Source: Flavobacterium terrigena (lineage in GTDB: Bacteria; Bacteroidota; Bacteroidia; Flavobacteriales; Flavobacteriaceae). Taken from it: a stretch of DNA of 64,000 nucleotides. The stretch spans positions 124,001-188,000 of the forward strand of contig NZ_FNYA01000004.1 in assembly GCF_900108955.1 (NCBI RefSeq). Direction: 5' to 3'. The position numbers were made by a program, and so were the translations under genes. How positions within the stretch are numbered: position 1 is the first letter of the stretch; every line of letters starts with the position of its first letter. The notes beneath the pieces were generated by a model, which was not told the origin of the DNA, did not search any database, and worked only from the letters and a program-made list of their open reading frames with translations. Shown here piece after piece: positions 45,764-63,079 of the stretch.

Positions 45764-45845
45764 TTGTGGCTAATAAAATTTCTAATTATGATAAAAAAAA
45801 AACATATCTAGACAAATGTATTACATCTAAATAATTTTAAAGTAC

Positions 45846-45853
45846 TAAGTTTG
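45846..45853 (+). promoter_or_regulatory. -7 box before the first Cys-rich gene
   Basis: TAAGTTTG matches TAnnTTTG and ends four bases before the ATG, like the spacing at tilS. Confidence 0.4.
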
Positions 45854-45857
45854 TAAC

Positions 45858-46181
45858 ATGAAAATAATGGTTGGCATATTATCATTTATTGTTGTGGTAC
45901 TTTCTGTAGTGCCATGCTATGCTTGTCATGGAGATACTAAACATCAAATTGAAACTCAGCACGAGGAACATTCTGGTAAATGCGATGATAATTGTGATGG
46001 TAATTGTTCTCCATTTTATTCCTGTGGCACATGTACGGGTTTTATTTCTGAAGTGACAGTATCATTTACAATTCATAAAATTTTCATGACTGACGATACT
46101 TCAATGCAACCTTACATTTACGAAAATCCTTTTTATTCTGCCTTTTTTTGCAAAATCTGGCAACCACCAAAAATAACTTAA
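45858..46181 (+). CDS. Cys-rich exported protein, DUF6660-like
   Basis: A 107-residue protein with a signal peptide (MKIMVGILSFIVVVL to about residue 20). The mature part is His- and Cys-rich (ACHGDTKHQ, CDDNCDGNCSPFYSCGTCTG) and ends in a hydrophobic, aromatic stretch. Such small proteins usually stand first in heavy-metal TonB receptor operons of flavobacteria and are labelled DUF6660. Metal binding in the periplasm is likely from composition. A TonB receptor follows 70 bases later. The protein at 59797-60171 is a related copy heading the second block. Confidence 0.75.
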   Translation: MKIMVGILSFIVVVLSVVPCYACHGDTKHQIETQHEEHSGKCDDNCDGNCSPFYSCGTCTGFISEVTVSFTIHKIFMTDDTSMQPYIYENPFYSAFFCKIWQPPKIT

Positions 46182-46251
46182 TGCTTTTTCATTCATGCAA
46201 ATGGTAAAACTATTTGCATAAAATCGATTATAAACATTAAGTAATTAAATA

Positions 46252-48414
46252 ATGCAAAAATATTTTTTCATAATCTCTGCAATATTCATTGTTGGGATAG
46301 CGCAAGCACAGAATAATTTTAAAGCTGTTATTAAAGACGAGCAAACAAATGAGCCAATTGTTGGAGTAACAGCTGTAGTTAATAACACAAGTACCATATC
46401 AAATGATGAAGGTTTAGTAATGTTTGCCAATATTCCAAATGGGGAGTATGTTATAACGTTTTCTTCTGAAGGTTACAAAAGTAAAACCGAAACATTTGTT
46501 TTTCCTCTACCAACTAATGATACTTTGGAGCTGTTTTTGGAATCCGAAACGGAAGAAATTGAAGAGGTAATAATTACTTCAACAAGAAGCAGTAGAACCA
46601 TTAGAAACATTCCTACAAGGGTCGAATTTATTGCTGGTGAAGAATTAGAAGAAAAAAGCAACATGAAGCCAGGAGATATCAGAATGTTGTTAAACGAAAG
46701 TACTGGTATTCAAACACAACAAACTTCAGCAACTTCAGCCAATTCCTCTATTCGAATACAGGGACTAGATGGAAGATATACACAAATACTGAAAGATGGT
46801 TTTCCCTTGTATTCAGGTGCATCAAGTGGTTTAGGACTTTTACAAACACCACCACTGGATTTAAAACAAGTTGAAATCATTAAAGGTTCTGCTTCTACTT
46901 TATATGGTGGCGGAGCAATTGCAGGATTAGTCAATCTAATTTCAAAAACACCAACAACGGAAAGAGAATTACGTTTTCATATTAACGGGACATCGGCATT
47001 AGGACTTGATATTAATGGGTTCTATTCGCAACGCTTTAACAAAATTGGATTCACACTATTTGCTTCTCATAACAGAAATGCTCCTTATGACCCAGCCGAT
47101 ATTCATTTGACTGCTATTCCAAAATTTGAGAGGTTCAATATAAACCCAAAATTGTTTATTTATTTTAACGATAAAACAAAACTAGATTTTGGACTAAATA
47201 CTGCTTTTGAAAACCGTATCGGTGGTGATATAGATTATATTAAAAATGATAAAAATTCAAGTGGATATTTTGAAAAGAATGACACTAAGAGAATAAGTAC
47301 TCAGCTAACATTAACACATCAACTTAAAGAAAACCAACAATTGGTATTCCGTAATAGCTTTAATAATTTTAATCGAATTGTATCAATTCCAAGCTACACT
47401 TTTGATGGCTTACAGAACAGTACTTTTTCAGAAGCCACCTATTCTCACAATGGCGAAATTTCGGATTGGGTAACAGGAGCAAATCTTTACACGGATAACT
47501 TTTCCGAAAAAGCAACCACTTCATTTCCTTTACGTGATTACAACCAAGTTACTATTGGGGCATTTGCTCAAAACACATTAAAAGTTAAAGAATGGCTACA
47601 TATTGAAACAGGTTTGAGAGGTGATTATATTGCTGATTATGGGTTTGCTTTCTTGCCAAAAGTATCAACGCTTTTTAAAGTAACAGATAAATTATCTTCA
47701 CGTATTGGTGGGGGTTTAGGTTATAAAACGCCAACTATATTTACAGAAGAAAGCGAGAGAATTCAATACAAAGATGTATTGCCGATTAATAGCAATTTTA
47801 ATAGTTTAGAAAGAAGTTACGGAGCGAATTTTGATGTTAATTACAAAACCAATATTACTGATGAAATTTCATTCAGTATCAATCAATTGTTTTTTTATAC
47901 CTACATCAATAATTCGTTAATACTAACACCGCTTCCAAATAGTACATTTCAGTTCGTTAATATTGATGGGCATATTGACACTAAAGGAACAGAAACCAAT
48001 ATTAAGTTGGGATATGAAGATTTTAAATTATTCATGGGTTATACTTTTACCGATGCTGTGGTTAATCAGAATGGTACTAAATCACAAAATCCACTTACAT
48101 CAAAACACCGCCTTAATAATGTTCTGATGTATGAAATTGAAGAAAAATGGAAAATTGGTTTGGAAGCTTACTATTATAGTCCGCAAAAATTAAATGATGG
48201 CTCAATAGGTAAGAATTATTGGGTTTTCGGAGCAATGATTGAAAAGCTATGGGAACATTTTTCCATATATGCTAACTTTGAAAATTTCTCAGATACAAGA
48301 CAAACAAAATTTGGAAGTATCTATACAGGGACTATTTCAAATCCAACATTCAAAGATATTTACGCTCCATTAGATGGTTTTGTTATTAATGCTGGAGTAA
48401 AAATTAAATTATAG
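46252..48414 (+). CDS. TonB-dependent outer-membrane receptor
   Basis: A 720-residue TonB-dependent receptor: signal peptide (to about residue 19), a carboxypeptidase-D regulatory-like domain (about 22-105), the plug with FIAGEELEEKSNMKPGDIRMLL, QGLDGRYTQILKDG and IEIIKGSASTLYGGGAIAGLVN-like strands, then a 22-strand barrel to the C-terminus ending in an aromatic-rich strand. It imports a ligand across the outer membrane with TonB energy. Its neighbours (Cys-rich protein, HMA-CDF transporter, MerC-like) suggest a metal or metal chelate. ATG start; the transporter gene begins 3 bases after its stop. Confidence 0.9.
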   Translation: MQKYFFIISAIFIVGIAQAQNNFKAVIKDEQTNEPIVGVTAVVNNTSTISNDEGLVMFANIPNGEYVITFSSEGYKSKTETFVFPLPTNDTLELFLESETEEIEEVIITSTRSSRTIRNIPTRVEFIAGEELEEKSNMKPGDIRMLLNESTGIQTQQTSATSANSSIRIQGLDGRYTQILKDGFPLYSGASSGLGLLQTPPLDLKQVEIIKGSASTLYGGGAIAGLVNLISKTPTTERELRFHINGTSALGLDINGFYSQRFNKIGFTLFASHNRNAPYDPADIHLTAIPKFERFNINPKLFIYFNDKTKLDFGLNTAFENRIGGDIDYIKNDKNSSGYFEKNDTKRISTQLTLTHQLKENQQLVFRNSFNNFNRIVSIPSYTFDGLQNSTFSEATYSHNGEISDWVTGANLYTDNFSEKATTSFPLRDYNQVTIGAFAQNTLKVKEWLHIETGLRGDYIADYGFAFLPKVSTLFKVTDKLSSRIGGGLGYKTPTIFTEESERIQYKDVLPINSNFNSLERSYGANFDVNYKTNITDEISFSINQLFFYTYINNSLILTPLPNSTFQFVNIDGHIDTKGTETNIKLGYEDFKLFMGYTFTDAVVNQNGTKSQNPLTSKHRLNNVLMYEIEEKWKIGLEAYYYSPQKLNDGSIGKNYWVFGAMIEKLWEHFSIYANFENFSDTRQTKFGSIYTGTISNPTFKDIYAPLDGFVINAGVKIKL

Positions 48415-48417
48415 CTT

Positions 48418-49212
48418 ATGAAAAAGAGCATTTATAAAATAACCAAAATGGATTGTCCTAGTGAGGAACAATTGATACGAATGAAGTTGAATGGTATTGA
48501 GCAAATTCAACATCTTAGTTTTGATATTCCAAATAGGAAATTAGAAATTTTTCATTTAGGTGATACAGAACCAATAACTGCTAAAATTGACAGTTTAAAC
48601 TTTGATAGCGCATTACTAGAAACTAAAATTTCAGAAGAGAACTTCCAATTTTCAGATGATTCTCAACAAAGAAAATTACTTTGGCAAGTATTAGTAATCA
48701 ATGCTTTTTTCTTCGTATTAGAAATGATTACAGGCTTTGTTTCCAACTCGATGGGATTAGTTGCTGATAGTTTAGATATGTTGGCGGATAGCGTTGTTTA
48801 TTCGTTCGCTTTATTTGCTGTTGGTGGTGCAGTTGCCCGCAAAAATGGCATTGCCAAAATCAGTGGTTACTTTCAATTGACACTAGCTATTTTAGGCTTT
48901 GTGGAAGTACTTCGAAGATTTTTAGGTTTTACCGAAGTGCCCGCATTCCAAACCATGATACTAATTTCTTTGCTTGCGCTTATTGGGAATGCTATAAGTT
49001 TGTACCTATTGCAAAAATCCAAAAGCAACGAAGCTCACATGCAAGCCAGTATGATTTTCACATCCAATGATGTGATTGTAAACCTTAGTGTGATTGTAGC
49101 TGGCGTGTTGGTATATTTCACCAATTCCAAAATTCCTGATTTGGTCATTGGGGTTTTTGTGTTTATCCTCGTAGGTAAAGGAGCATTTAGAATTTTAAAA
49201 CTTTCAAAATAA
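48418..49212 (+). CDS. Cation transporter: HMA-like domain fused to a CDF efflux domain
   Basis: A 264-residue protein. Residues 1-75 resemble a heavy-metal-associated fold (YKITKMDCPSEEQLIRMKL), though with a single Cys rather than CxxC. The rest is a six-helix cation diffusion facilitator core, with SMGLVADSLDMLADSV bearing the transport-site DxxxD and HMQASMIFTSNDVIVN bearing the second acidic site. No C-terminal cytoplasmic domain is present. It probably exports a divalent metal from the cytoplasm. Start 3 bases after the TonB receptor; the MerC-like gene follows after 6 bases. Confidence 0.85.
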   Translation: MKKSIYKITKMDCPSEEQLIRMKLNGIEQIQHLSFDIPNRKLEIFHLGDTEPITAKIDSLNFDSALLETKISEENFQFSDDSQQRKLLWQVLVINAFFFVLEMITGFVSNSMGLVADSLDMLADSVVYSFALFAVGGAVARKNGIAKISGYFQLTLAILGFVEVLRRFLGFTEVPAFQTMILISLLALIGNAISLYLLQKSKSNEAHMQASMIFTSNDVIVNLSVIVAGVLVYFTNSKIPDLVIGVFVFILVGKGAFRILKLSK

Positions 49213-49218
49213 TAACAA

Positions 49219-49827
49219 ATGAAAAATATTTTAACTAATAATATTGACAAGCTTGGAACAGTTGGAGTTTTCTTAACTGCTATTTTTTCACCATGTTGTT
49301 TCCCTATTTTCGCATTCGGTGCTTCCGCTCTTGGATTGGGTAGTTTTGAATTATTTGGTGGTTGGACAATGTGGATTTTCCAAGCTATGGTTTTGGTTTC
49401 GCTAATTGGACTTTATATTTCATATCGCAAACATCGATGTACATATCCGTTGATAGTAGGCATACCAAGTGGATTTTTGATATTTTATGGTTATCATTTT
49501 GCCAACGATGGTACATATTTCATTTATGCTGGAATGTTTGGTTTGTTTGTTAGTACAGCAATAAATTATTATAGCAACAAACTTCATGGGGATTGTGACA
49601 CATGTACAATTTACAACGGTAAAAAAGTTGAATTGGAATCAACGATTACTTGCCCGAAATGCGGGCATAAGAAAACGGAAATGATGCCAACCAATGCTTG
49701 TGAGTTTTTTTATGAATGTAAAGGCTGTAAAACGAGATTGCGACCATTGGAAGGTGATTGTTGCGTATATTGTAGCTATGGAACGGTGAAATGCCCACCC
49801 ATTCAAGCTGGTGATAATTGTTGCTAG
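49219..49827 (+). CDS. MerC-like membrane protein with Cys-rich C-terminal domain
   Basis: A 202-residue protein. The first 130 residues hold four membrane helices with the MerC-type FSPCCFPIFAFG near the first. The soluble C-terminal part has repeated Cys: GDCDTCTIY, TCPKCGHKK, YECKGCKTRLRP and GDCCVYCSYGTVKCPP, probably zinc-ribbon-like metal sites. MerC imports mercuric ion in mercury-resistance operons; no merA is present here, so another metal is possible. Third gene of the receptor-transporter operon, 6 bases after it. ATG start. Confidence 0.8.
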   Translation: MKNILTNNIDKLGTVGVFLTAIFSPCCFPIFAFGASALGLGSFELFGGWTMWIFQAMVLVSLIGLYISYRKHRCTYPLIVGIPSGFLIFYGYHFANDGTYFIYAGMFGLFVSTAINYYSNKLHGDCDTCTIYNGKKVELESTITCPKCGHKKTEMMPTNACEFFYECKGCKTRLRPLEGDCCVYCSYGTVKCPPIQAGDNCC

Positions 49828-49867
49828 TTTTTTATAGAATAAAAGTATAGTAAAACAAAAAAATCTT

Positions 49868-50119
49868 ATGTTATCAGACAAAAAATGCAAGCAGATATTA
49901 AATCAAAATGGCTTTTTCTATACTGATGTAGAAGTAATTTTAATCAAAGAAACACTTTATAAATTAATTGAGATAATTCATAAAGACGATTTACAAAATA
50001 AATTTAAAAGTGAGAAGAACGTCTCGGTAAACGACATTCAACAGAGAAATGAGAGCACAATCATGTGTTCAACCTTTCCTTTTCTGCCAAATCCAAAACC
50101 AATCTATAAACTGGTATAA
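49868..50119 (+). CDS. Small hypothetical protein at the metal block end
   Basis: An 83-residue protein starting MLSDKKCKQILNQNGFFYTD followed by VEVILIKETLYKLIEI. This pattern (iLn-x-G-x2-Y-x3-E-V-x2-I-x2-x-LY) resembles short proteins I remember from flavobacterial mobile elements, none with a known role. The C-terminal half is low in recognisable structure. ATG start, 41 bases after the MerC-like gene. It may be a translated remnant. Confidence 0.5.
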   Translation: MLSDKKCKQILNQNGFFYTDVEVILIKETLYKLIEIIHKDDLQNKFKSEKNVSVNDIQQRNESTIMCSTFPFLPNPKPIYKLV

Positions 50120-50245
50120 TATCTCAAAGATATAAATATTATTTTGTTGTAGGAATAAAATGATATATAACTCCTTGATTTGCAATTTAATAAAAATTAG
50201 TTTATTTTGTTTGTAAATATTTTCACTAAATATCAAACTAAACCT

Positions 50246-50253
50246 TAAATTTG
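50246..50253 (+). promoter_or_regulatory. -7 box before the ShosTA-like pair
   Basis: TAAATTTG matches TAnnTTTG, 28 bases before the ATG at 50281. Confidence 0.45.
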
Positions 50254-50280
50254 TAATTAAAGGTTTAACAAAATTACAAT

Positions 50281-51444
50281 ATGAAATTATTAATAACATC
50301 AATTGACGCTTTAATAGATAATTTAACTGAAGATTATTTTGATGGTATTAAAGAAGCATTAGATTATTTTGAATCATTAAATGAAGATAATACAGTTGTT
50401 ATTATTTCAATTCATCAAGATAGGCTTGATGCAATTCCAAATGATTTTGAAAAAGTTTGTGTAAATGCAAATTATAGAAGAGGTACTGGTTTAATTCAAT
50501 ATATTAACAATAAAATAAAAATTAATTTTAGTGATATATTAATTTTAGGAGCTAAGGAAGATGATTTGTTTTTGGCAGCAAATTCAAAATTAGTTTTATT
50601 GACAGCTGATTATGCACGAGAAAACAATCCAGATGATAAATTATATACTTATAGATATGGAATTGGAATATTATCACCAGCAAGACTAAGGTATTTTTTT
50701 GAACATTTTTTAAATATAAATAACCCTTGGTATTATAGATTAAAAGTTGATGATAGTACTGAATTGTATGGGCTTACCAATGCAATGACAAATATGGAAT
50801 TAAATCCAGATGTTAAAGCTATTGGCAATAGTTTAAAAGGATTTTTAAAATCTGGAATTACTGAATTTAAAAATCCTTTTCTAATTTATTCATTAATTAG
50901 TGCTTATCAAAATCATAGCGAGTTTAATGAAATTAATTATTGGGGTTATTATCCTTCTTCAACTGGAAAAGAAAATGAAGTACTTAAAACTTTTAAAGAA
51001 GTTTTAAGAAAAACATTTAGTTCAAGTAGAAAAACAGATGATATTTTAATAAGGCATAAACCATCAGCTGCTAGAAAAAATATGTCAGCAGCTGAAAGAA
51101 TTTCTAATGGTTGTAATTCAGAATTTGATACAATCATTTTGAATCCAGTTTATAAACATTTATTAAGAGGTAAGAATGTATGTATTATTGATGATTATAC
51201 AACACACGGTTCATCTTGTGAAACAGTTAGAAAACTTCTAAAAAAAGCTGGTGTCAATAAAATTATTTTTATTGCTTTAGGTAAATTTAAAGTCGATTAT
51301 AAAATTTATGATTATGAAATTGATGGTGATGTTTATAAAGTTGGATATACTTATAAATGTTCTGGTGAATTTACTGCTGTAAGAGGTACAATAAATCCAG
51401 ATTATAAAACCAACTTAATTGAATCTTTAAATCATTTATTGTAA
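50281..51444 (+). CDS. HAD-like/phosphoribosyltransferase protein, ShosT-like toxin candidate
   Basis: A 387-residue two-domain protein. The N-terminal part looks like a HAD fold: LLITSIDALIDN (residues 3-13) takes the place of motif I, but Ser7 replaces the nucleophilic Asp; VVIISIHQ (39-46) and LILGAKEDDL follow as motifs II and IV. The C-terminal part is a phosphoribosyltransferase with the PRPP loop VCIIDDYTTHGSS (300-312). ShosT of the published ShosTA anti-phage pair also combines a PRTase-type toxin with a DprA-like partner. The stop overlaps the partner's ATG by one base, so the two are translationally coupled. Confidence 0.75.
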   Translation: MKLLITSIDALIDNLTEDYFDGIKEALDYFESLNEDNTVVIISIHQDRLDAIPNDFEKVCVNANYRRGTGLIQYINNKIKINFSDILILGAKEDDLFLAANSKLVLLTADYARENNPDDKLYTYRYGIGILSPARLRYFFEHFLNINNPWYYRLKVDDSTELYGLTNAMTNMELNPDVKAIGNSLKGFLKSGITEFKNPFLIYSLISAYQNHSEFNEINYWGYYPSSTGKENEVLKTFKEVLRKTFSSSRKTDDILIRHKPSAARKNMSAAERISNGCNSEFDTIILNPVYKHLLRGKNVCIIDDYTTHGSSCETVRKLLKKAGVNKIIFIALGKFKVDYKIYDYEIDGDVYKVGYTYKCSGEFTAVRGTINPDYKTNLIESLNHLL

Positions 51445-52337
51445 TGATATTAAATTTAAAACAAATAATTTTATTAAAATACTTAACAAAGTATAATATT
51501 AAAATCATTAAAGATTATGCTAATCTTTATGAAGATTTTGATACTTTGTTATTTTCATTAATTCAAAATTTTTTAATTTCTGATAAAGTTGTTAATGAAT
51601 CTTATGTGTTTTCTGAAATTGCAATTGATAAATTAAAGTATTATGATATTCAAACAATAACTTGTTTTGATGATGATTACCCAATTCAATTAAAAAGAAT
51701 CAATGATTCACCACTTGTTATTTATTACAAAGGTGTTTTGAAGTTAGATAAATTAGCGGCTGTTGTTGGTAGTAGAAAAGTTTCAAAACACGGTAAAAAA
51801 ATTACTTATCAAATTGTAGATTGGTTAAATGAATTGAATTTTGGTGTCGTTTCTGGTTTGGCTTTAGGTATTGATACTTTTGCTCATGAAAAAGCAGTTC
51901 AAAATAAACAATATACTATTGCCGTTTTACCAAATTCATTGGATTCAATTTATCCACCAACAAATTTTAAATTAGCTAATGAAATAATTGAAAGTGGTGG
52001 CTGTTTAGTTTCAGAAATGATTTTTGGAATCAATAGAGGCAATCAAAGTTTTGTTCAAAGAAATAGAATACAAGCCGCATTATCAGATACTGTAATTCCA
52101 ATTGAAATGGGTGTTAATTCTGGAACAATGCACACAATAGATTTTGCAAAAAGATATAAAAAGAATATTGCATTATTTAAACCAACACCTATGTTAAGTG
52201 AAATTGAAAATTACTTTGGAATACTTCATTTAATAAATAATCCTCACCAGTTTCAATCAATTTTTACAGATAGAGATTCATTTTTTAATCTAATCAATTC
52301 ACTTGGAACAACAGAACAATTTGATTTAGGTATTTAA
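51444..52337 (+). CDS. DprA/Smf-like protein, ShosA-like antitoxin candidate
   Basis: A 297-residue DprA-type Rossmann protein. Visible: an N-terminal helical part, then AAVVGSRKVSKHGKK, FGVVSGLALGIDTFAHEKAV, IAVLPNSLDSIYPPTN, GGCLVSEM, FVQRNRIQAALSDTVIPIE and NSGTMHTIDFA, the full DprA core. Housekeeping DprA loads RecA in transformation; this copy lacks the C-terminal winged helix and is coupled to a PRTase gene, as ShosA is to ShosT. The role is therefore more likely antitoxin or sensor in defence. It starts with ATG inside the preceding stop (TAATG). Confidence 0.8.
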   Translation: MILNLKQIILLKYLTKYNIKIIKDYANLYEDFDTLLFSLIQNFLISDKVVNESYVFSEIAIDKLKYYDIQTITCFDDDYPIQLKRINDSPLVIYYKGVLKLDKLAAVVGSRKVSKHGKKITYQIVDWLNELNFGVVSGLALGIDTFAHEKAVQNKQYTIAVLPNSLDSIYPPTNFKLANEIIESGGCLVSEMIFGINRGNQSFVQRNRIQAALSDTVIPIEMGVNSGTMHTIDFAKRYKKNIALFKPTPMLSEIENYFGILHLINNPHQFQSIFTDRDSFFNLINSLGTTEQFDLGI

Positions 52338-52398
52338 GATTTATAGTAATCGTTAAGAACCTCATTTAATTTCCTAAATAATGGTGTAAGTTGTAAAA

Positions 52399-54003
52399 TT
52401 ATTTAATTAAAGAATAAACATCATGATAATCTTCAATTGAATAAGCAGATAGATTCCAAGCCATAGGTTGTAACTTTGATTTTAATTCTTCTGGAACTTC
52501 ATCATTAAACAATTTTCTATTAATTATTTTACTTATTTCTTCTTTTGATAACAATTCAATTGTTCCATTAGCTTCATTTGATGTGTTATTTGAAACGATT
52601 TCTGTTTTCTTAATATCTAACTCATAATCAAAATTTTGTGCTTTAAAATAAGCTGTAATTAATTCAAGTATTTCTTGTTCATTTTCAGCTTTAACAATTA
52701 CAGAATCGTGTTTTGTCAAACCGAAAAATTTCTTCTTTTTAAGGTCCATAAAAATATCATCAATAAACATTTTTGATTCCATTAGCTGCAATTTTATTGC
52801 AAAATTATTATCACCATTTTCTTTTTTATAATTATCAATAAAAGCAATAACAGTTTGAAATAATTCTTGCAATTTCTTTTTGTTTGCGGTTGTGTTTTTA
52901 TGTGAACTAAAAAGAATTTCAAAGGCAGCGTTTTTACCTTCTTTTCTATCTTTTAAATCTAGGTTATCTTTGATGTATTCATAAAGTTTACCAGATGCTG
53001 AAAGTTCTTTAAATAACTTGAAATCACTTGTGTGTAATTTATCTTGTAACATAAATGAAAGAATAGCAAATTGACTATTTTTTAAATCAATTTGTATCAA
53101 GTTATTTTGGTTACAAATTTCATCAACCATTTTAGAACACATATTAGTAAAGTTGGTGTCTAATCGATTATTTGTTTGATTTCTTTTAGCACGATAATTA
53201 CCGTTTTTAAGGTTCATTAATGCTTGATTATACATAATATCAATCATTTGCTTTTTAGTTGAAATAAAAGCTTCTGGTGCAGCAATTACAAATCGCTTAT
53301 TATCTTTAATCAGTACCATATTCATTTCTTTTGCTTTTGCAATTGCATTTTCACGTTTCATCCAGATTGAAGATTTGTTGATTGTTAGATTAATTATTTC
53401 ATCAAGTATTTTTTCATTTGTTGCAAATGATTCAATTGAAATACTATCAATTTTATTTTGAATAATTTCTTCTAATTTAGTGTAATCAATATTTAATTGT
53501 TCAATATCTTTTTTGAAGTAATTTAAGTGTAATATATCTTCTTTATCTAATTTAATAATATCTCTATAACTCACTATTGATAAGGGTTTACATTGATTGT
53601 CTACACATAGTACATTAGATGATTTATCAATATAATTATCATATAAATTATTAATAAAATAATTAGAATTAATTGAATAATTATAACAAGTATTATTATC
53701 TTTTGAATAATAATCATTTCTAATAATAATGTTATTATCTAAAAGTGGTTTTAACCAATTTTGATAATTTTTATCATTGAATGATTTCTTGATGTATTCA
53801 ATTGGAATTGCAGTTTCTTCAAATAAGTCTTTGTAATCATTGAAGTTATTTCTTAAAATAATTCCAATGAATTTGAAAGAATAAGATTGATTTTCTTTTG
53901 ATAGATTTAAAGCTTTTACATCTTCAACTAATTGTGAAGGTAATTTTAAATAAGAAGTAGTTTTAATTTTGTGTTCTTTCTGAACATTTTTTTTGTGTTT
54001 CAA
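52399..54003 (-). CDS. Divergent family-A DNA polymerase-like protein with winged-helix-like N-terminus
   Basis: A 534-residue protein. Residues about 40-115 look like a winged helix. From 278 on, features of family-A polymerases appear in order: NNRLDTNFTNM (cf. GRLSS-x-PNLQN), motif A IDLKNSQFAILSF with D306, a motif B-like R353-x3-K357-x3-F361 in DRKEGKNAAFEILF, a helix ESKMFIDDIFMDL and motif C GLTKHDSVIV with H432-D433. Both catalytic Asp are present. No exonuclease domain is seen. A replication protein of an integrated element is likely. Start is TTG at 54003; an in-frame stop lies 11 codons upstream and no early ATG exists. Confidence 0.6.
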   Translation of the reverse strand: MKHKKNVQKEHKIKTTSYLKLPSQLVEDVKALNLSKENQSYSFKFIGIILRNNFNDYKDLFEETAIPIEYIKKSFNDKNYQNWLKPLLDNNIIIRNDYYSKDNNTCYNYSINSNYFINNLYDNYIDKSSNVLCVDNQCKPLSIVSYRDIIKLDKEDILHLNYFKKDIEQLNIDYTKLEEIIQNKIDSISIESFATNEKILDEIINLTINKSSIWMKRENAIAKAKEMNMVLIKDNKRFVIAAPEAFISTKKQMIDIMYNQALMNLKNGNYRAKRNQTNNRLDTNFTNMCSKMVDEICNQNNLIQIDLKNSQFAILSFMLQDKLHTSDFKLFKELSASGKLYEYIKDNLDLKDRKEGKNAAFEILFSSHKNTTANKKKLQELFQTVIAFIDNYKKENGDNNFAIKLQLMESKMFIDDIFMDLKKKKFFGLTKHDSVIVKAENEQEILELITAYFKAQNFDYELDIKKTEIVSNNTSNEANGTIELLSKEEISKIINRKLFNDEVPEELKSKLQPMAWNLSAYSIEDYHDVYSLIK

Positions 54004-54306
54004 TTTTAAGTTAATATTTCGCCTTTGTTATTTTCGCCTTATTTTACTTCGGTGGCGAAACCTATGGGAGCAACCCCATAGGAAACCGAAGGTTTTTCTA
54101 AAAACTTTACTGTTTATTATTAAATATCTAACTTTTCTTCAAAGGTTTTTCAATTTGATAAAATTTACGATTTTTTTTTGATATAGTCAACTACTTTACA
54201 GTCAAATGTTAAAGTTTTGGACAAAAAACGTATAAAAAATAGTTATTGAAATAATATTATTAATTTAGCTTAAATACTATAAAAACAATTTTTTTAAACA
54301 CAACTT
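54004..54306. other. Structured non-coding region between divergent genes
   Basis: No gene is seen here. CTTCGGT (54047-54053) pairs with ACCGAAG (54085-54091), and inside lie CCTATGGG and CCCATAGG (54061-54082), together a strong two-step hairpin. TTTCGCC (about 54018 and 54033) can pair instead with GGCGAAA (54054-54060), giving an alternative fold. The rest (54100-54306) is AT-rich. An origin, copy-control RNA or leader of the polymerase-like gene are possible. Confidence 0.55.
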
Positions 54307-54804
54307 ATGACAAATTTCCTAGTAATTAGAGGTACAGCAGATGGTGGTAAGACAACTACAGCTGGGCTATTATTTGAACAACTTAAACCAAAAGCATCAC
54401 AATTCAAGCTTTTCAATTGGGCTTGGAAAGAAATAGATAAATTACATTATAATTCAGAAGGTGAATTAATTGATTTTATTGCTGTTTTGGTAATTGATGG
54501 CAAGGTTATAATTATCATTAGTCAAGGTGATAAACCAAATGTTTTACAAAAGGTATTGGATTTTTTAAAAGATTTAATTTCTTTAAGTAAAATAACTGGA
54601 ATTAATATTTCTAAAATTGATATTGTAATTTGTTGTGCAAGAAGTCGAAATGTAAATGGTTCAACTTACAAAATGCTAACAAAAAGAATTAATTCAAATA
54701 ACTTATTCGATTTTTGGACTTCAAAAGATGATGATATTTCTAAAAAATTATCTTGTAAACAAAAAGTAGTTGATGAATTGGTTCAAAAAATCAAATCATT
54801 ATAA
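54307..54804 (+). CDS. P-loop NTPase-like protein
   Basis: A 165-residue protein with a Walker A motif at the very N-terminus, FLVIRGTADGGKTTTAGLLF (residues 4-23). A hydrophobic strand FIAVLVIDGKVIIIISQGD follows, and KIDIVICCARSRN may be the later strand of the fold. It resembles small AAA/kinase-like P-loop proteins, but no substrate can be named. It is transcribed away from the polymerase-like gene across the structured region, so the two may belong to one replication or maintenance module. ATG start; terminator behind. Confidence 0.65.
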   Translation: MTNFLVIRGTADGGKTTTAGLLFEQLKPKASQFKLFNWAWKEIDKLHYNSEGELIDFIAVLVIDGKVIIIISQGDKPNVLQKVLDFLKDLISLSKITGINISKIDIVICCARSRNVNGSTYKMLTKRINSNNLFDFWTSKDDDISKKLSCKQKVVDELVQKIKSL

Positions 54805-54825
54805 ATTACATTTTTAAAATTATTA

Positions 54826-54862
54826 AAATGCTATCTAAAATTTAGGCAGCATTTTTTTTTTG
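54826..54862 (+). terminator. Terminator after the P-loop gene
   Basis: AATGCTATCTA pairs with TAGGCAGCATT, allowing one mismatch and a G-U pair, and is followed by ten T. Confidence 0.8.
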
Positions 54863-54966
54863 GGAACATGACACAGCCCACCCACAGAAATTAAGGTTGT
54901 TAAGATATATTTGATAGTTGTGTTTGTAAAACAGAAATTAGTTTAAAGAAAGAGGGTGAGACTCTA

Positions 54967-55221
54967 TTATTTTGAATCGGTTTTTTTGATTCCATGAAAA
55001 AATTCTTCTAAACTTACATCAAGTACCCTACAGATTTTAATTAATGTTTTAAGTTCAAAATTAGCACCAGTTTCTAATCTCCAGTATGCTGAACGACTCA
55101 TTCCTAATGCAAATGCAATATGTTCATAATTAGAAAATCCTTTAGTTTTTCTAAGTTCTTTTAGTCTCAGAGCAATTGCTTCAAGCTCTTCAAGATTTGG
55201 TTTTTCAGTAGAATCTTTCAT
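54967..55221 (-). CDS. XRE-family regulator
   Basis: An 84-residue helix-turn-helix protein of the Cro/C1 type: ALRLKELRKTKGFSNYEHIAFALGMSRSAYWRLETGANFELKTL, then KICRVLDVSLEEFF. It stands alone and diverges from the GloVer-repeat gene. The shared gap contains a direct repeat (GTACTCTATAG / GTACACTATAA), likely its operator, so it may control itself and that gene. ATG start, normal size. Confidence 0.85.
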   Translation of the reverse strand: MKDSTEKPNLEELEAIALRLKELRKTKGFSNYEHIAFALGMSRSAYWRLETGANFELKTLIKICRVLDVSLEEFFHGIKKTDSK

Positions 55222-55253
55222 ACTCCAAATCTCAATATTTTTATTTTTCTGTG

Positions 55254-55302
55254 GTACTCTATAGTTTAGTACACTATAAAATAGAATTTTATTTTATATT
55301 TG
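55254..55302 (+). promoter_or_regulatory. Operator repeats and -7 box of the GloVer-repeat gene
   Basis: GTACTCTATAG (from 55254) and GTACACTATAA (from 55269) are 11-base direct repeats 15 bases apart; TATAGT and ACTATA within them also form an inverted repeat. TATATTTG at 55295-55302 is a consensus -7 box, 22 bases before the ATG. Binding by the divergent XRE protein is likely. Confidence 0.5.
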
Positions 55303-55323
55303 TTAAAATTTTAAAAAAGAAAA

Positions 55324-56715
55324 ATGATGAAAAAATATTTTTTAATCTTAACAATTCTAATTACTTCGTTATCAAATGCTCAATTTACCAATTTGCATAA
55401 TTTCTCAGCAGTAGGTAGTGGTGGTTATAGCTCATTGACTTTTGCAAACGGTCTTTTGTATGGAACGACAAACATAGGCGGAACAAATAATGCAGGTTAT
55501 GTTTATTCAATAAATCCAAATGGAACTGGATTTACAATACTGCATAGCTTTACGGAAACTTATAGTTTTCCATGCGGTTCGTTGTTATATGATAATGGTA
55601 TATTGTATGGAATGTCTTCCCAAGGTGATGGAATCTACAAACTAAACATAGATGGAACTGGATATACAGTTTTACATTTATTTACTTATCAAAATCCTCT
55701 TGATGGAAATAATCCGCAAGGTTCTTTAGTTATTTCAGGTAATACATTATATGGTATGACCCGAAAAGGTGGTGCCGTTTATGCTGATATATTAGGTGGT
55801 GAAGGAACAATTTTTAAAATAAATACTGATGGGAGCAACTTCAATATACTTCACAGTTTTAATTTGGGTGAGGAAAACCCATACGGTTCATTGCTTATGG
55901 ATGGTAATTTCCTGTATGGTATGACTTCCACGTATGGTTCAAATAATAATGCTGGTAAAATATTCAAAATCAATAAAGACGGAACTGGTTATACAATATT
56001 ACACAATTTCAATTATACAAATGGTTCAAAGCCAAACGGAACGCTTGTATTGGGTGGAAATACCTTATATGGGATGACTGCTTTGGGTGGAGCAACAGGT
56101 AAAGGAAATATTTTTAAAATCAATACGGACGGCACGGGATTTCAAAGTCTATTTAGTGAATTAAACGGCTCAACTAATTATACTTGGTCATATGGCTCAT
56201 TGGTGCTGGTGGGAAATGTTCTTTACGGGAAATCAAACGTAAACTTATATTCAATCAATACAGACGGAACGGGTTACCAATGGTATAATTGGAGTCAGTA
56301 TGGAACTGCTCCACAAAGTTATGATATTCAAGAAAACGGAACGCTAACTTACGATGGTAGCGCATTATATGGCGTTAATAACCGCTATGGTGGGACATTA
56401 GACAGAGGTGTTATTTATAAGTTCACGCCAGCCAATCTAAGTATTGAAACAAATAATTTATCTAACAATTCAATAAAAATCTATCCCAACCCAGCAACTG
56501 ATTGCATAACAATCGATTTTGATAATCAAATAAATGTTAGCGGTTGGAATGTTAAAATCATCAATACAATAGGACAAGAAGTGTTTAACCAAAACATAAA
56601 TCAACAACAAAATATAGTGCCATTTAATAACCTGAACGGAACTGGAATTTATTTTGTGAGAATTTACGATGACAGCAATAAATTAATCGATACCAAAAAA
56701 ATCATTTTAAAATAA
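55324..56715 (+). CDS. GloVer-repeat secreted protein with type IX sorting domain
   Basis: A 463-residue protein with a signal peptide ending SNAQ. About seven repeats run through residues 30-370, each with GTTNIGGTNNAGYVYSIN-type and GTGFTILHSF-type strands (the choice-of-anchor GloVer repeat), which fold as a propeller-like structure. Residues from about 380 form a type IX sorting domain, KIYPNPATDCITIDF to GIYFVRIYD. It is therefore a secreted or surface protein; the ligand is unknown. ATG start behind an XRE-type operator. A SHOCT-domain gene follows 6 bases after the stop. Confidence 0.85.
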   Translation: MMKKYFLILTILITSLSNAQFTNLHNFSAVGSGGYSSLTFANGLLYGTTNIGGTNNAGYVYSINPNGTGFTILHSFTETYSFPCGSLLYDNGILYGMSSQGDGIYKLNIDGTGYTVLHLFTYQNPLDGNNPQGSLVISGNTLYGMTRKGGAVYADILGGEGTIFKINTDGSNFNILHSFNLGEENPYGSLLMDGNFLYGMTSTYGSNNNAGKIFKINKDGTGYTILHNFNYTNGSKPNGTLVLGGNTLYGMTALGGATGKGNIFKINTDGTGFQSLFSELNGSTNYTWSYGSLVLVGNVLYGKSNVNLYSINTDGTGYQWYNWSQYGTAPQSYDIQENGTLTYDGSALYGVNNRYGGTLDRGVIYKFTPANLSIETNNLSNNSIKIYPNPATDCITIDFDNQINVSGWNVKIINTIGQEVFNQNINQQQNIVPFNNLNGTGIYFVRIYDDSNKLIDTKKIILK

Positions 56716-56721
56716 AATAAT

Positions 56722-57363
56722 ATGGAATCAAAACAACCAAACCCGAAAACATTCGATTTTAAAACTGGCGTGACAGTTGAAACAACCAATGACAAGGTTA
56801 CTGCAACTGCTCAGAACAGTAATAAAACGATTCAATCAACTGATTTAGACAATTTTTCCTATGCTGAACACACGGAGCAACGCATGACGTTTGTGGGTGT
56901 ATTGTCTCGTATGTTCGTTATTGGGCTATTGCTAGTAATATTGAATAAAGTACTGTTTGGTAAATTACAACTGGAATCACAAGCAATCATTATCGGTTGT
57001 ACGTTGATGGGATTAGCGTTTGTTCTATTTTTAATTACGGTGATTGATTCATTTTTAGAACTAGGTATTACTAACAACATAATAAATAATTTCTTTTCAA
57101 ATCGAGGCTATTATATAACTATAGGAAATAAAAGCGGGAACAACATCGAATTTATAACAGAACTTAACGAACTGGAATTGATAAAAGAACTTGAAACGAA
57201 AATATACGAGCTGAAGAAATCTGCTGTTAAAAATGATGCGACAGTAATACAGCCAAATAGTAATTTAGATGAACTAAAAAAATTATCTGAACTTCTAAAC
57301 GCTGGAATTATTACTCAAACCGAATTTGACCAAAAGAAAAAGCAATTATTAAAGTTGAATTAA
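56722..57363 (+). CDS. Membrane protein with SHOCT-type C-terminus
   Basis: A 213-residue protein. A soluble N-terminus precedes two membrane helices (about residues 58-75 and 88-112). The middle part, YYITIGNKSGNNIEFITELNE, then ELETKIYELKK, resembles DUF6232-type domains. The C-terminus, LDELKKLSELLNAGIITQTEFDQKKKQLL, is a SHOCT motif, a short helical hairpin found at the ends of many proteins. Function unknown. It starts 6 bases after the GloVer gene and is probably co-transcribed. Confidence 0.75.
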   Translation: MESKQPNPKTFDFKTGVTVETTNDKVTATAQNSNKTIQSTDLDNFSYAEHTEQRMTFVGVLSRMFVIGLLLVILNKVLFGKLQLESQAIIIGCTLMGLAFVLFLITVIDSFLELGITNNIINNFFSNRGYYITIGNKSGNNIEFITELNELELIKELETKIYELKKSAVKNDATVIQPNSNLDELKKLSELLNAGIITQTEFDQKKKQLLKLN

Positions 57364-57666
57364 TCGGTGCTTTTATGTACCTAAAATGTAGTTTTAATGT
57401 TCCTTTTTGTACCCCATTTGTTCTGTCAAACACACGTAAAAGTTTAAGGTTCAAACAGAAAAATACACCCCCTCTGGGGTAAAAACACCCCTTCCCCCGT
57501 GTAAATGGCAAGAAAAATTGGGAAATGCTTATTTTCAGTTATCCGCCTCATTTAGGAAACACTTACTTATGTATTATGGTGTGCATGAAGTGGCTCAAAA
57601 ATTTTCTAGGAAAAATTTTGAAATCAATTTTCGCTTTTTAGTTGATATTTATTAATAAACGGAAAA
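57364..57666. other. Non-coding region with C-rich structured segment
   Basis: No gene is seen. TTCTGT (57421) and ACAGAA (about 57455) are inverted, followed by an unusual C-rich patch (57464-57501) in which TACAC and GTGTA enclose CCCC-TCT-GGGG. Further on, AAAATTTT repeats flank CTAGG. This GC-rich patch stands out from the AT-rich surroundings. Confidence 0.5.
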
Positions 57667-57825
57667 ATGAAAATAATTATCACACTCGAACAATTAAAAA
57701 TGATACTTCAGACTGAAGACCCAAAATATCCAATCATATTCGAAGTATCGAATTTCACACCAAAAGAACTAAAGGAGTTTTCAAAATTGTTACAATCAAA
57801 AAAAGAACGAAGGCATAGCTTTTAA
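57667..57825 (+). CDS. Small hypothetical protein (52 aa)
   Basis: ATG at 57667 to TAA at 57825 encodes MKIIITLEQLKMILQTEDPK and 32 further residues, ending in KKERRHSF. Regular alternation of helix-like and hydrophobic stretches, a preceding GGAAAA, and its place in a gene gap favour a real gene. No family recognised. It lies upstream of a convergent XRE gene. Confidence 0.5.
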   Translation: MKIIITLEQLKMILQTEDPKYPIIFEVSNFTPKELKEFSKLLQSKKERRHSF

Positions 57826-57862
57826 TAAAGTTTGACTTTTATTAATTTATAATAATTTTGTA

Positions 57863-58138
57863 TTATTTGTTTTCAAGAATTTTAAGAGATTTTTCTAATA
57901 ATTCTTTTACTTGATTTACTTCAGATTGTAAAACAACTGAATTTTTTGTTGCAACAAACATTTCTCTAATATCCACATCAAGTGCTTCAGCCAACTGGAG
58001 TAATAAATTTATTGTTGGCAAATTTTTTTCCGAATTAATATTACTGATAGTCGTCATAGATACTCCAACCTTATTGGCTAATTCTTCCCTACTTATTCCT
58101 TTTTGATTCATCAATTCTTTTAGGCGTAATACTTCCAT
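57863..58138 (-). CDS. XRE-family regulator
   Basis: A 91-residue Cro/C1-type helix-turn-helix protein: EVLRLKELMNQKGISREELANKVGVSMTTISNINSEK, then LLQLAEALDVDIREMF, plus a helical tail with QVNQVKELLEKSLKIL. The frame is open to a TTG at 58159, but ATG at 58138 is the natural start just before the domain. The divergent gap to 58275 contains two copies of a perfect operator-like palindrome, so autoregulation and control of the two divergent genes are likely. Confidence 0.9.
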   Translation of the reverse strand: MEVLRLKELMNQKGISREELANKVGVSMTTISNINSEKNLPTINLLLQLAEALDVDIREMFVATKNSVVLQSEVNQVKELLEKSLKILENK

Positions 58139-58172
58139 TTTATTTTTTTTAGAATACAAATATATAAAAAAT

Positions 58173-58243
58173 AAAGTAAAGCTTTATTTTTTATTAAATT
58201 AATTAAGTATTATTTGTTTTTTAATAAAATAAAGCTTTACTTT
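58173..58243. promoter_or_regulatory. Paired operators in the XRE divergent gap
   Basis: AAAGTAAAGCTTTATTTT (58173-58190) and its exact inverse AAAATAAAGCTTTACTTT (58226-58243) are each near-palindromic around AAGCTT. They lie on the two sides of the gap, one near each divergent start, as expected for an autoregulating XRE repressor. Confidence 0.7.
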
Positions 58244-58274
58244 GTAGTGTATTAATAAAGTAATACTTGATTTT

Positions 58275-58598
58275 ATGAATGCTGCAGAATTTAAAAACGG
58301 AATTAGATTAATTAAAGAAAATTTGAAAGGGTTAACCTTACAGTTGGCAAATTCTAATGGTTATATATCTTTTAAAACTTTAAATGAATTTGGTGGTGCT
58401 ATTTTAGAAGAAGAAAAAAAAGGTTATGATTTCAGAATTAAAAAAGTTTGGACTATAGATGGAAGTGTTGGAGTTAAATCAATTAAGCATTTAGCAGAAT
58501 TATTCAAAACTAGTAATGTAACTGCAATACAATTTGAAAGCTTCTGGAATCCAAAAACAAAAGAAGAATTTATGAGAAGTTTTGGAGCTTTAGATTAA
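58275..58598 (+). CDS. Hypothetical protein under XRE-operator control
   Basis: A 107-residue protein with no recognised domain. It has an N-terminal helix FKNGIRLIKENLKGLTLQLAN and a mixed core; there is no signal or membrane segment. It is divergent from the XRE gene with an operator 32 bases upstream, and the next unknown gene starts 18 bases after its stop. The pair may form an operon switched by the XRE protein. ATG start. Confidence 0.55.
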   Translation: MNAAEFKNGIRLIKENLKGLTLQLANSNGYISFKTLNEFGGAILEEEKKGYDFRIKKVWTIDGSVGVKSIKHLAELFKTSNVTAIQFESFWNPKTKEEFMRSFGALD

Positions 58599-58615
58599 TA
58601 TTAAAATATAACAAA

Positions 58616-58927
58616 ATGGAAGATATATCAAAAACAATGGAAATAGCACAAACAATATTAGACCAAATAAAATTAGCAGACCGTTCTGCTCTTATTGCTT
58701 GGGGAGCAACAAATTTTTGTGCATTAGAAGAATCAAAAGAATTTCAAGGTGGATTGTCTTTTAAGGTTAATGGGGTAATTCATAGAGGATGGGTGAAAGT
58801 TTGTTTAAGATGGGTTGATGATTATAACATAGTATTTATTAATCGTAATCGTGAGACTGTTAAAACTTTTGAAGGAGCTTATTGTGATATGTTAGTTCCA
58901 GTTATTGATTGGATTGAAGGAAAGTAA
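58616..58927 (+). CDS. Hypothetical protein, second gene of XRE-controlled pair
   Basis: A 103-residue protein. After an N-terminal helix (MEIAQTILDQIKLADRSALIAW) it has short strands such as GGLSFKVNGV, GWVKVCLRW and YNIVFINRN, then a helical end. No family recognised by eye. Trp- and Cys-containing strands suggest a compact alpha-beta fold. It starts 18 bases after the preceding gene and shares its likely regulation. ATG start. Confidence 0.55.
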   Translation: MEDISKTMEIAQTILDQIKLADRSALIAWGATNFCALEESKEFQGGLSFKVNGVIHRGWVKVCLRWVDDYNIVFINRNRETVKTFEGAYCDMLVPVIDWIEGK

Positions 58928-59071
58928 TTTTAATTTTTGTTTTAGATTTAGACTATGGTTATTTTTTAAAACGAAAGTATAAAACTAAATCCCAACAAAA
59001 TCAGCAATAATGTTTTAAAAAAACTTGGAGTCTAAAACTAAAACAAAACTAACTACAAATATCAAAATATT

Positions 59072-59701
59072 ATGACTTACTATTTTTATTCTAGGACTTC
59101 AACCGTGCTTCAAAACAGTGCTAGGCAAATCGAATCGTTTAAATCTCACGAAGGTTTTGACCCATCAAGATTGTTTGTTGAAAGAATACAAGGTAATGTA
59201 CCTTTTATGGAAAGACCTGAAGCTGTCAAAATGTTTGATGAAATAACCAATCAATCTGAAAGATGCACAGTCGTTGTGGATTCTACCGATAGGCTCGGAA
59301 GGAATTTATTGGATATTTTAAATACCATTTCTGTATTCAAAAAAAATCAAATTAATTTAAAATCTCTTAAAGAAGGGTTTTCAACTTTTTTAGATAATGG
59401 AGAAGAAAATCCGATGGCTAATCTAGTTATTTCGGTGATGGGTAGCATCGGAGAGTTAAGTCGTAATCAAATCAAATCTAGGAGTATGGAAGGGATTAAG
59501 GTAGCTCAAGCTCTTGGAAAATTTAAAGGGCGAAAAATTGGAAGTGTTCAATCCATAGATAAAACGATTCAAAGACATGCTGATGTAGTTTTGAAAATCA
59601 AAAAAGGATTATCTGTAAGAGATATTAATACAATAACTGGAAAATCATCCACCACAATAGTCAATGTTAGAAAAATACTTTTGAATAGAGGTGAAATTTA
59701 A
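59072..59701 (+). CDS. Serine recombinase (resolvase/invertase family)
   Basis: A 209-residue serine recombinase that cuts and rejoins DNA at specific sites. The catalytic Ser is in YFYSRTST (residue 7 or 10), with the Arg-rich VVDSTDRLGRNLLDIL and the long helix ELSRNQIKSRSMEGI. The C-terminal part is a helix-turn-helix with GLSVRDINTITGKSSTTIVNVRK. Size fits the small resolvase/invertase type rather than large serine integrases. It lies at the junction between the defence segment and the second metal block, so it may be the recombinase of that segment. ATG start. Confidence 0.9.
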   Translation: MTYYFYSRTSTVLQNSARQIESFKSHEGFDPSRLFVERIQGNVPFMERPEAVKMFDEITNQSERCTVVVDSTDRLGRNLLDILNTISVFKKNQINLKSLKEGFSTFLDNGEENPMANLVISVMGSIGELSRNQIKSRSMEGIKVAQALGKFKGRKIGSVQSIDKTIQRHADVVLKIKKGLSVRDINTITGKSSTTIVNVRKILLNRGEI

Positions 59702-59769
59702 ACTTATAACTAAAAAATGAAATTTTAACATTTTAACATCATTTTAAACATAAAATAATAAGTTTTTAT

Positions 59770-59777
59770 TAGTTTTG
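59770..59777 (+). promoter_or_regulatory. -7 box before the second Cys-rich gene
   Basis: TAGTTTTG matches TAnnTTTG, 20 bases before the ATG at 59797. Confidence 0.45.
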
Positions 59778-59796
59778 TCATGTTATAATTTTTTTA

Positions 59797-60171
59797 ATGA
59801 AAAAATACCACATCATATTAGTAGTTTTTTTAAGCATATTCTTTATGCCTAATAGTACTATGGCTTGTGGTAGTGATTCAAAGCATACTTGTGAAAAAGA
59901 GGTTTCATCTACAGAGACAGAGAAAAAGTGTTGTTGTAGTAATGACAGTTCTAAAAGCAAAGATGAAAAAGGATGTAATGGTGATTGTGGTCATTCAAAA
60001 TGTGGTTGTTCTTCAACTTGTCCAGCTTCTTCAATAAGTTTTTTACCAGAAATTATTTTTAAAATTGACTTTATTCGCTATTCTTCAATAGAGAAAGTTA
60101 ATTTTTTATATACAACTCCATCAATCTCAGATGGTTTTCATTCAATTTGGCTAATACCAAAAATAGGCTAA
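59797..60171 (+). CDS. Cys-rich exported metal-binding protein
   Basis: A 124-residue protein with a signal peptide (to about residue 23, TMA). The middle is exceptionally Cys-rich (KKCCCSNDSS, GCNGDCGHSKCGCSSTC), with thirteen or so Cys, and the end is hydrophobic and aromatic (SFLPEIIFKIDF... FHSIWLIPKIG). It is a longer relative of the protein at 45858-46181 and heads the second metal block. Metal binding in the periplasm is likely from composition. ATG start with its own promoter. Confidence 0.7.
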   Translation: MKKYHIILVVFLSIFFMPNSTMACGSDSKHTCEKEVSSTETEKKCCCSNDSSKSKDEKGCNGDCGHSKCGCSSTCPASSISFLPEIIFKIDFIRYSSIEKVNFLYTTPSISDGFHSIWLIPKIG

Positions 60172-60361
60172 ATTCATTTTTTGACAGCCATTAGTGTGTC
60201 AAATTTATAGCAGTTTGCTATCGTATCAATCAGCAGTTTGTTTTCCGTTTTTAGGATAATTATTTTTAATTATTTCTAAAATAGTCAACTCAACTGTAAT
60301 TCAATTATTTTTTATCAACTTATCAAAGTAATTCACTTTGATTACTAATACATTATTTAAA

Positions 60362-61234: not shown

Positions 61235-61240
61235 TCTAAA

Positions 61241-61705: not shown

Positions 61706-61707
61706 AA

Positions 61708-63020: not shown

Positions 63021-63079
63021 TTGTTACAATAATAGAATTTCAACAACATAAATTTAATACTAATTTAAAATTTAATAAA

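Follow-up and report, generated by a model that had tools for sequence, protein, structure and literature searches.

An integrative element within comM

The window analyzed here, a 64,000-nucleotide stretch of the Flavobacterium terrigena genome, contains a gene (P0001; 52399-54003, minus strand) that encodes 534 amino acids in one unbroken frame from a TTG start, and that a first-pass annotation had described as a divergent family-A polymerase-like protein and possible replicase of a small integrated element. The gene lies within DNA that splits comM. The 5′ part of comM (45317-45763, plus strand) is cut after 148 codons at window position 45763, and the remainder (contig C12:197540-198619, beyond the window) starts 27.8 kb to the right. 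Imperfectly matching repeats lie at the two joints, GAAGCGGCTATTATT on the left (45746-45760, plus strand) and GAAGCGGCCATTGTT on the right (contig C12:197513-197527), and the inserted element between them, ~27.8 kb long, occupies 45761-64000 of the window and continues to contig C12:197512. A 616-aa large serine recombinase is encoded beside the right joint (contig C12:195660-197510, minus strand) and, judging from this arrangement, is probably the enzyme that inserted the element into comM. The split gene, joint repeats and recombinase agree with the annotated integration, but at ~27.8 kb the element is not small; neither the split comM nor the folded leader described below had been mentioned.

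Among the relatives searched, comM forms an open frame of 509-554 codons in 21 of 24, and the insertion site is uncut in 12 of the 14 genus loci examined, the search pattern having missed the other two. Five Flavobacterium-type genomes have a comM split by integrative elements, at one place in G000 (the present genome) and G479 and at another in G350, G556 and G341, with large serine recombinases adjoining the split gene where seen. Just before comM in the window, a 66-aa ORF (44984-45184) has the look of a GG-type leader peptide (KILTVNELKSINGG) and possibly encodes a small secreted peptide.

The element carries cargo for resistance to copper and other metals (window 46252-49827 and 60338-63956, on to contig C12:193087), comprising a TonB receptor, cation efflux, MerC and HMA proteins, a copper-type ATPase and a multicopper oxidase. 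Its defense cargo includes a ShosT-like phosphoribosyltransferase (50281-51444, plus strand) and a ShosA-like DprA protein (51444-52337, plus strand), a DprA-PRTase pair being credited with anti-phage protection in E. coli in the available text of PMC9122126; an Abi_alpha protein is also among the cargo, and a 209-aa small serine recombinase is encoded at 59072-59701 (plus strand). A Pfam scan that took in 27 of the 34 element ORFs of at least 50 aa found no phage structural gene among those 27. A prophage of F. aquaticum occupies the same comM codons as this element and encodes the closest relative of P0001, with 69% identity where the two match. Its large serine recombinase (599 aa) is 41.6% identical to that of the element and its small one 32%; it also has a terminase (Pfam), along with further phage-like genes recognized by eye. 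A 103-aa protein without a Pfam match (window 58616-58927) has relatives in two leader-bearing elements (76% in L144 and 74% in L146) and a 29% relative in the F. aquaticum prophage.

The polymerase and its relatives

The motif A, motif B-like and motif C residues of P0001 stand where the first-pass annotation had placed them (R280-L-D-T-N, D306-L-K-N-S-Q311-F, R353-x3-K357-x3-F361 and K431-H432-D433-S434), with the codons of D306 (motif A) and D433 (motif C) located from alignments at 53086-53088 and 52705-52707, both on the minus strand. R280, D306, Q311, G338, Y341, K357, E409, H432 and D433 are invariant in an alignment of 21 sequences, P0001 included; residues invariant in all 25 sequences of a second alignment, which also includes P0001, are, among others, R280, D306, N309, S310, Q311, Y341, K357, Q406, E409, H432 and D433. 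The R-x3-K of motif B is present and its K357 invariant, but R353 is not conserved, being I, A or D in three of the five members of P0001's closest clade. Q311 lies five residues after D306, and F361 ends motif B. By our own reading, Q311 would stand at the place of E710 of Pol I and F361 at that of F762, two residues named in the accessible text of PMC7581432, which gives E710 as one of two residues that discriminate against ribonucleotides.

An AlphaFold model of P0001 built from 25 sequences had a mean pLDDT of 84.2 and a pTM of 0.77. KlenTaq, T7 DNA polymerase and the apicoplast polymerase stood at the top of the Foldseek list against the PDB (E = 7e-5 to 1e-4), and VIA-align gave Z scores of 14.3 for apPol (268 residues, 4.0 Å), 13.9 for T7 (255 residues, 3.8 Å) and 13.7 for Klenow (282 residues, 4.3 Å), all of these matches spanning approximately residues 151-468 (52600-53553, minus strand). 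Because a family-A core is predicted over these residues, a fold without a palm domain, which the annotation had named as its own refutation, falls away. In the model, strand 302-307 contains D306, and D433 falls between two further strands (429-431 and 434-438), a predicted placement that is as expected for motifs A and C, while R280 sits in a beta-hairpin (strands 272-274 and 281-283). The predicted fold and the conserved residues together bear out a family-A palm with motifs A, B and C, and on this modeling we consider the polymerase-like observation confirmed, with P0001 predicted to be a genuine family-A polymerase. In a viral library the matches were to phage proteins and to the replication proteins of two virophages, Qinghai Lake virophage (6e-5) and Zamilon (3e-4).

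Two domains were recognized in P0001, the polymerase core and a predicted winged helix (approximately residues 21-113; 53665-53943, minus strand; AlphaFold and VIA), residues 470-534 having been searched as part of the whole protein. The winged helix, anticipated in the annotation, appeared both in the whole model and when residues 1-119 were predicted alone (pLDDT 81.2). Its best VIA match was the plasmid initiator 4pt7 (Z = 7.7), with the winged helices of TFIIE, Orc and CodY close behind; a Z below 8 is a sign of a common fold and not of kinship. The suggested initiator-polymerase fusion is plausible in view of the predicted winged helix and its best match, although the score is one that many winged helices reach. 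Consistent with the annotation, no exonuclease domain was matched in P0001 by Pfam, and the VIA alignments cover only residues 151-468, tools that cannot prove absence.

Searches of Pfam, PHROGs, NCBIfam and the PDB with the P0001 sequence gave no match better than E = 0.07, and neither the first viral scan, made with P0001 only, nor a PLSDB search returned a relative; these sequence comparisons did not identify the protein. Within the class, P0001 matched in 7 of 295 genomes (its own, five others and one, L007, rejected since the ORFs there look sigma-factor-like by eye). Within the genus it matched in 22 of 398 genomes, its own included, although L024, L025 and L028 (frames of 1,042-1,134 codons) were later left aside for want of a TV-Pol HMM match at 1e-5. 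The 21-row profile matched in 38 of 397 genomes of the family, again with its own. A relative in F. croceum is 43% identical to P0001, and 25 uncultured phage contigs of 24-476 kb (L070-L094) encode TV-Pols of ~30% identity; a tblastn search of INPHARED with a leader-bearing TV-Pol gave five records, all huge uncultured phages without annotation. None of the 21 family members scanned matched a TV-Pol-like family in Pfam (four unrelated families were matched, each by a single member), and in PHROGs no more than 3 of the 21 had a match. A second TV-Pol-like stretch in this genome, outside the window at contig G000:C13:83958-85100, has an in-frame stop.

P0001 almost certainly belongs to the TV-Pol family, a known but little-studied family of mobile-element polymerases. 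The family was described in 2008 by Iyer, Abhiman and Aravind (PMC2579912), in whose available text it includes Sputnik V13 and Bacteroidetes members and is predicted to consist of primase-polymerases. The placement is based on the motifs as described there, the 2008 sequences being compared by description only, and on the virophage structural matches: P0001 has a family-A core, the hairpin arginine, two aspartates, the RxxxK of the fingers and serine recombinase neighbors, and no nuclease was found. Fitting this family, as far as its published description goes, and matching in 22 of 398 genus genomes, P0001 is not an orphan. No co-oriented ORF of at least 60 aa that could encode a small OB-fold partner lies within 960 bases upstream or 1.2 kb downstream of P0001, and among the 27 of 34 element ORFs scanned with Pfam no helicase family was matched, D5/COG3378 and DUF927 being those sought.

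A folded leader upstream of P0001 and other genes

The surprising part of the finding is the leader upstream of P0001, which follows a plan of two nested stems with a joining strand, J, in the 3′ junction that is complementary to two downstream repeats, R1 and R2. Its core, comprising outer stem, inner hairpin and J, was located with a pattern finder and by alignment at 54047-54091 (minus strand). J (7 nt, TTTCGCC) occupies 54054-54060, R1 (GGCGAAA) 54032-54038 and R2 (GGCGAAA) 54017-54023, all on the minus strand; R2 ends 13 nt before the TTG start, and both J complements are perfect. In 8 of 25 leaders a TATATTTA box is found 23-26 nt upstream of the outer stem, and the window leader has no such promoter box at that spacing. 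A short sequence, ACAGTAAAGT, just upstream of the outer stem (window 54098-54114) is also seen before leaders L010, L012, L138 and L140 and occurs at both TV-Pol and non-TV-Pol leaders. Rfam gave a best score of 15.1 bits for the window leader against a gathering score of 60, and six further leader loci matched only Flavo-1 and tRNA, elsewhere in the sequence. In the literature as accessible to us, nothing was found on the leader, nor on TV-Pols in Flavobacterium beyond the 2008 paper (PMC2579912), and the folded leader is apparently undescribed so far.

The pattern finder, which looked for nested stems with a downstream complement, was run on 77 upstream regions and matched 19, compared with a single match among 385 dinucleotide shuffles and none among 77 control stretches of coding sequence. 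Seventeen matches were judged real and two (L003 and L122) were dropped as chance; with L019 added by eye, this gave 18 TV-Pol leaders. They precede TV-Pols only 20-25% identical to P0001 as well as close relatives, and are present at 14 of the 17 genus TV-Pols with a readable upstream region (absent at L015, L018 and L026; L011 and L013 lie at contig edges). The other four of the 18 (L061, L062, L064 and L065) are in records labeled Bacteroidetes, Crocinitomicaceae, Flavobacteriia and Flavobacteriaceae. The finder gave no leader at large-phage TV-Pols, including those examined among contigs L070-L094, or at most TV-Pols of other genera. The distance from the end of R2 to the start codon ranges from 1 to 17 nt over the 18 leaders and is 9 nt in nine of them; for L010 and L012 it was first taken to an out-of-frame ATG, the in-frame TTG being 12 and 13 nt away.

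Watson-Crick pairs filled 90 of 90 outer-stem and 124 of 126 inner-stem cells in the 18 leaders, and 118 of 119 J-R2 and 107 of 119 J-R1 cells in the 17 leaders with a 7-nt J, percentages that are inflated because leaders were chosen for their stems and R1 and R2 for best pairing, although the diversity of pair types is not. In 1,000 shuffles of the columns, not one of the four paired totals was equaled. A covariance model that held only the two stems as pairs, with no J-R pairing, gave 19 matches, spread over 19 of the 398 genomes of the genus. Ten are at TV-Pol genes and the other nine are not, and the leader as a TV-Pol-only feature was rejected on that count. Downstream of J, a perfect 7-nt complement was present in 6 of the 9 non-TV-Pol leaders versus 1 of 68 swapped pairs, and in 22 of 25 leaders versus 15 of 564 swapped pairs. 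Complements of at least 6/7 were found in all nine non-TV-Pol leaders but also in 23 of 68 swapped pairs, and by chance in 224 of 564; these being so common, only perfect 7-nt complements were relied on. Applied to individual non-TV-Pol leaders, a shuffled-J control had little power, with 17 to 355 of 500 shuffles reaching the best, owing to purine-rich downstream DNA.

In an alignment of 25 leaders, fitted to the stems and not to J-R2, 94.9% of cells pair versus 65.7% when shuffled, and the covariation score was 0.760 versus 0.195 shuffled (reached by 0 of 500) and at most 0.127 with slid partners. Less extreme measures on the same leaders were pairs with changes on both sides, reached by 3 of 500 shuffles, and further pair types, reached by 2 of 500. 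Run with strict filters on 397 genomes of the family, a second covariance model recovered the leader of the window and no other, indicating that the leader is rare outside the genus and that false matches are few. Finder matches L012 and L014 were not recovered by the covariance model, and two loci were not counted: L054, with a decayed-looking leader ~390-470 nt upstream of its gene (E = 0.22), and L118, a chance-level match (E = 0.77). On a 76-protein tree the leader was clustered, with 6 changes versus 16.3 when labels were shuffled; supported branches force at least 5 changes, which places it in several separate TV-Pol lineages.

The nine non-TV-Pol Flavobacterium loci with the leader include a PriCT-type primase and winged-helix-like proteins, and the TV-Pol profile matched no ORF in the seven longer stretches examined (L144-L150). 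The primase (L143; first 400 of 491 residues scanned) matched BT4734-like_N above and PriCT_1 just below the cut-off. Three loci (L132, L134 and L135) encode proteins of 272-274 aa that look winged-helix-like by eye, and L132, the one of these scanned, had no Pfam match; L138 and L140 encode proteins of 253 and 209 aa that matched HTH, HrcA or DnaD_N only weakly and short of the cut-off. At L139 the leader precedes a 603-aa protein of no recognized kind (L144 is the longer stretch of this ORF), with a similar one at L141, making two genomes, and at L133 an IS21-like transposase gene, recognized by eye. The leader loci of G350, G341 and G556 lie near comM fragments interrupted at the second site, with phage-like genes by eye. 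Varied genes behind the leader near comM suggest that different replication-type genes fill a slot comparable to that of the TV-Pol in the F. aquaticum prophage, and we propose that the leader is a portable control unit placed before unrelated replication-type genes in Flavobacterium elements.

Proposed function and comparison with known systems

Computation shows the polymerase fold with its conserved catalytic residues, the extent of the element and a leader that covaries; the best explanation overall, which we consider likely, is a TV-Pol replication protein of the comM element whose translation is controlled by a portable folded leader. That P0001 is the replication protein of the element can be proposed with good confidence; we lean, with more reserve, toward a leader acting on translation as RNA, and put forward a two-state J-R1/J-R2 switch only tentatively. 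After excision of the element, the winged helix would bind element DNA and the polymerase would prime and copy it, in the manner proposed for CcPol-MP on SCCmec, with a helicase supplied by the host. Transcription would begin at a promoter not far upstream, and the 5′ leader would fold into its two nested stems, leaving J to pair with R1 or R2. Pairing with R2, where the ribosome would bind, would turn translation off and pairing with R1 would free the start, so that the switch would hold synthesis of the replication protein low. The switch is proposed since only J-R2 covers the ribosome-binding zone, and the place of R2 before the start and the spacing of the TATATTTA box suggest a 5′ leader that acts on translation.

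The pairing itself bears on whether RNA is the folded strand. Stem and J-R2 cells comprise 484 Watson-Crick pairs, 1 G-U pair and 11 others out of 496. Such a near absence of G-U pairs is odd for RNA stems. Folded alone as RNA, the window leader preferred the inner hairpin with J-R1 and paired its outer arms elsewhere; L016, L062 and L017 gave both stems, L009 did not, and folding z-scores for five leaders were only -1.4 to -3.4. Palindromes or iterons in double-stranded DNA were set aside as the whole explanation, because the stems are nested and asymmetric with J in the 3′ junction, which we infer suits a folded strand. The G-U count and the folding of the window leader make folded single-stranded DNA possible, and the leader could then be an origin or priming site, built of the hairpin and the 7-nt pairing, recognized by the winged helices of TV-Pols or other initiators, its closeness to start codons reflecting compact organization. 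We regard this as unlikely, even though the genes behind the leader are replication-type and the TV-Pol has a predicted winged helix: the position of R2 relative to the start codon is fixed (9 nt away in 9 of 18), the promoter-like box at fixed spacing before the stems in 8 of 25 suits an mRNA 5′ leader, and no origin activity is known.

A similarly low probability attaches to the leader being a site where the replication protein represses its own translation, instead of a two-state switch. There are phage T4 precedents, gp43 binding a hairpin ~40 nt upstream together with the ribosome-binding site and gp32 binding a pseudoknot, according to the accessible text of PMC3014915. The leader also precedes proteins without a TV-Pol profile match, however, which lowers the likelihood of an operator specific to one protein, except where recognition is by a winged helix that these proteins share. 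Somewhat more doubtful is that mobile elements of Flavobacterium use the folded element as a portable, origin-like module, in which the folded single strand serves for recognition and priming by whichever replication protein is encoded behind it; if so, replication proteins of unrelated folds (TV-Pol, PriCT-type primase, winged-helix-like initiator) would be exchanged behind one conserved structured site. Very improbable is a reading in which element and polymerase gene are cargo in decay and the protein is out of use. In its favor, the 27 scanned ORFs lack phage structural genes though a prophage uses the same comM site, the second TV-Pol-like copy carries an in-frame stop and P0001 starts with TTG, but the P0001 frame is intact over 534 codons with catalytic residues present and its leader has two perfect J complements.

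Returning to translational control by a folded leader as the preferred reading, P0001 is a TV-Pol in an uncommon setting: it has a predicted winged helix, neither a helicase nor an SSB partner was found for it, the element around it splits comM, and no Rfam family matched its structured leader. Members of its group are compact candidates that contain their own winged helix and for which no partner gene was found, so that priming and extension can be tested in one protein, and the leader is a sharply defined covarying element. The presence of TV-Pol, PriCT-type primase and winged-helix-like genes in a comparable slot supports the proposed exchange of replication modules, and changes to J, R1 and R2 would give a direct handle on how integrative elements keep replication genes quiet.

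Folded leaders of replication genes have precedents in plasmids and phages. Asano and Mizobuchi reportedly described, in 1998, an RNA pseudoknot that switches translation of the initiator repZ in the IncI-alpha plasmid ColIb-P9. In such plasmids an antisense RNA controls the pseudoknot. There, too, a replication gene has a folded leader on its mRNA, in which a short sequence pairs over a distance close to the start, a trait present here in the perfect J complements (22 of 25 leaders versus 15 of 564 swapped pairs); the Flavobacterium leader differs in having two nested stems, a 7-nt J in the 3′ junction, both R1 and R2, and unrelated genes that share it. The T4 gene 43 operator and gene 32 pseudoknot, as covered in the accessible text of PMC3014915, are also folded leaders directly before a replication gene and beside the ribosome-binding site, but no common sequence or layout is shown, that of gp43 has no pseudoknot and the T4 leaders are gene-specific.

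Across residues 151-468 the predicted fold of the polymerase is that of Pol I (Klenow, Taq) and T7 DNA polymerase (Z ~14), with which it also has motifs A, B and C in common, yet it is only 10-13% identical to them, has no exonuclease domain found and, compared with Pol I, has Q311 at the putative place of E710 and S434 after the motif C aspartate. Closer in setting is CcPol of SCCmec, assigned to the TV-Pol group, for which de novo DNA primer synthesis together with MP has been shown experimentally and which operates with MP and a helicase (accessible text of PMC7581432 and PMC10061031); its authors stated in 2020 that they were aware of no other biochemically characterized TV-Pol (PMC7581432). 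Like the CcPol-MP and PolA-SSB primases as those texts present them, P0001 is an apparently exonuclease-less A-family polymerase in an integrative element with a large serine recombinase; unlike them, it has no adjoining co-oriented partner ORF and no helicase found, carries a fused winged helix instead and comes from a host in Bacteroidota, not Bacillota. Relative to TV-Pols as described in the available text of PMC2579912, its N-terminal domain is predicted to be a winged helix where that paper calls it all-helical and uncharacterized, no D5-like helicase was found in its element, a folded leader precedes its gene and the RxxxK arginine is lost in three of five close members. With that family it shares the family-A core without recognized nuclease domains, the hairpin arginine, the two catalytic aspartates, the RxxxK of the fingers, a mobile-element setting with serine recombinases and, as in a subset of members, an N-terminal globular domain.
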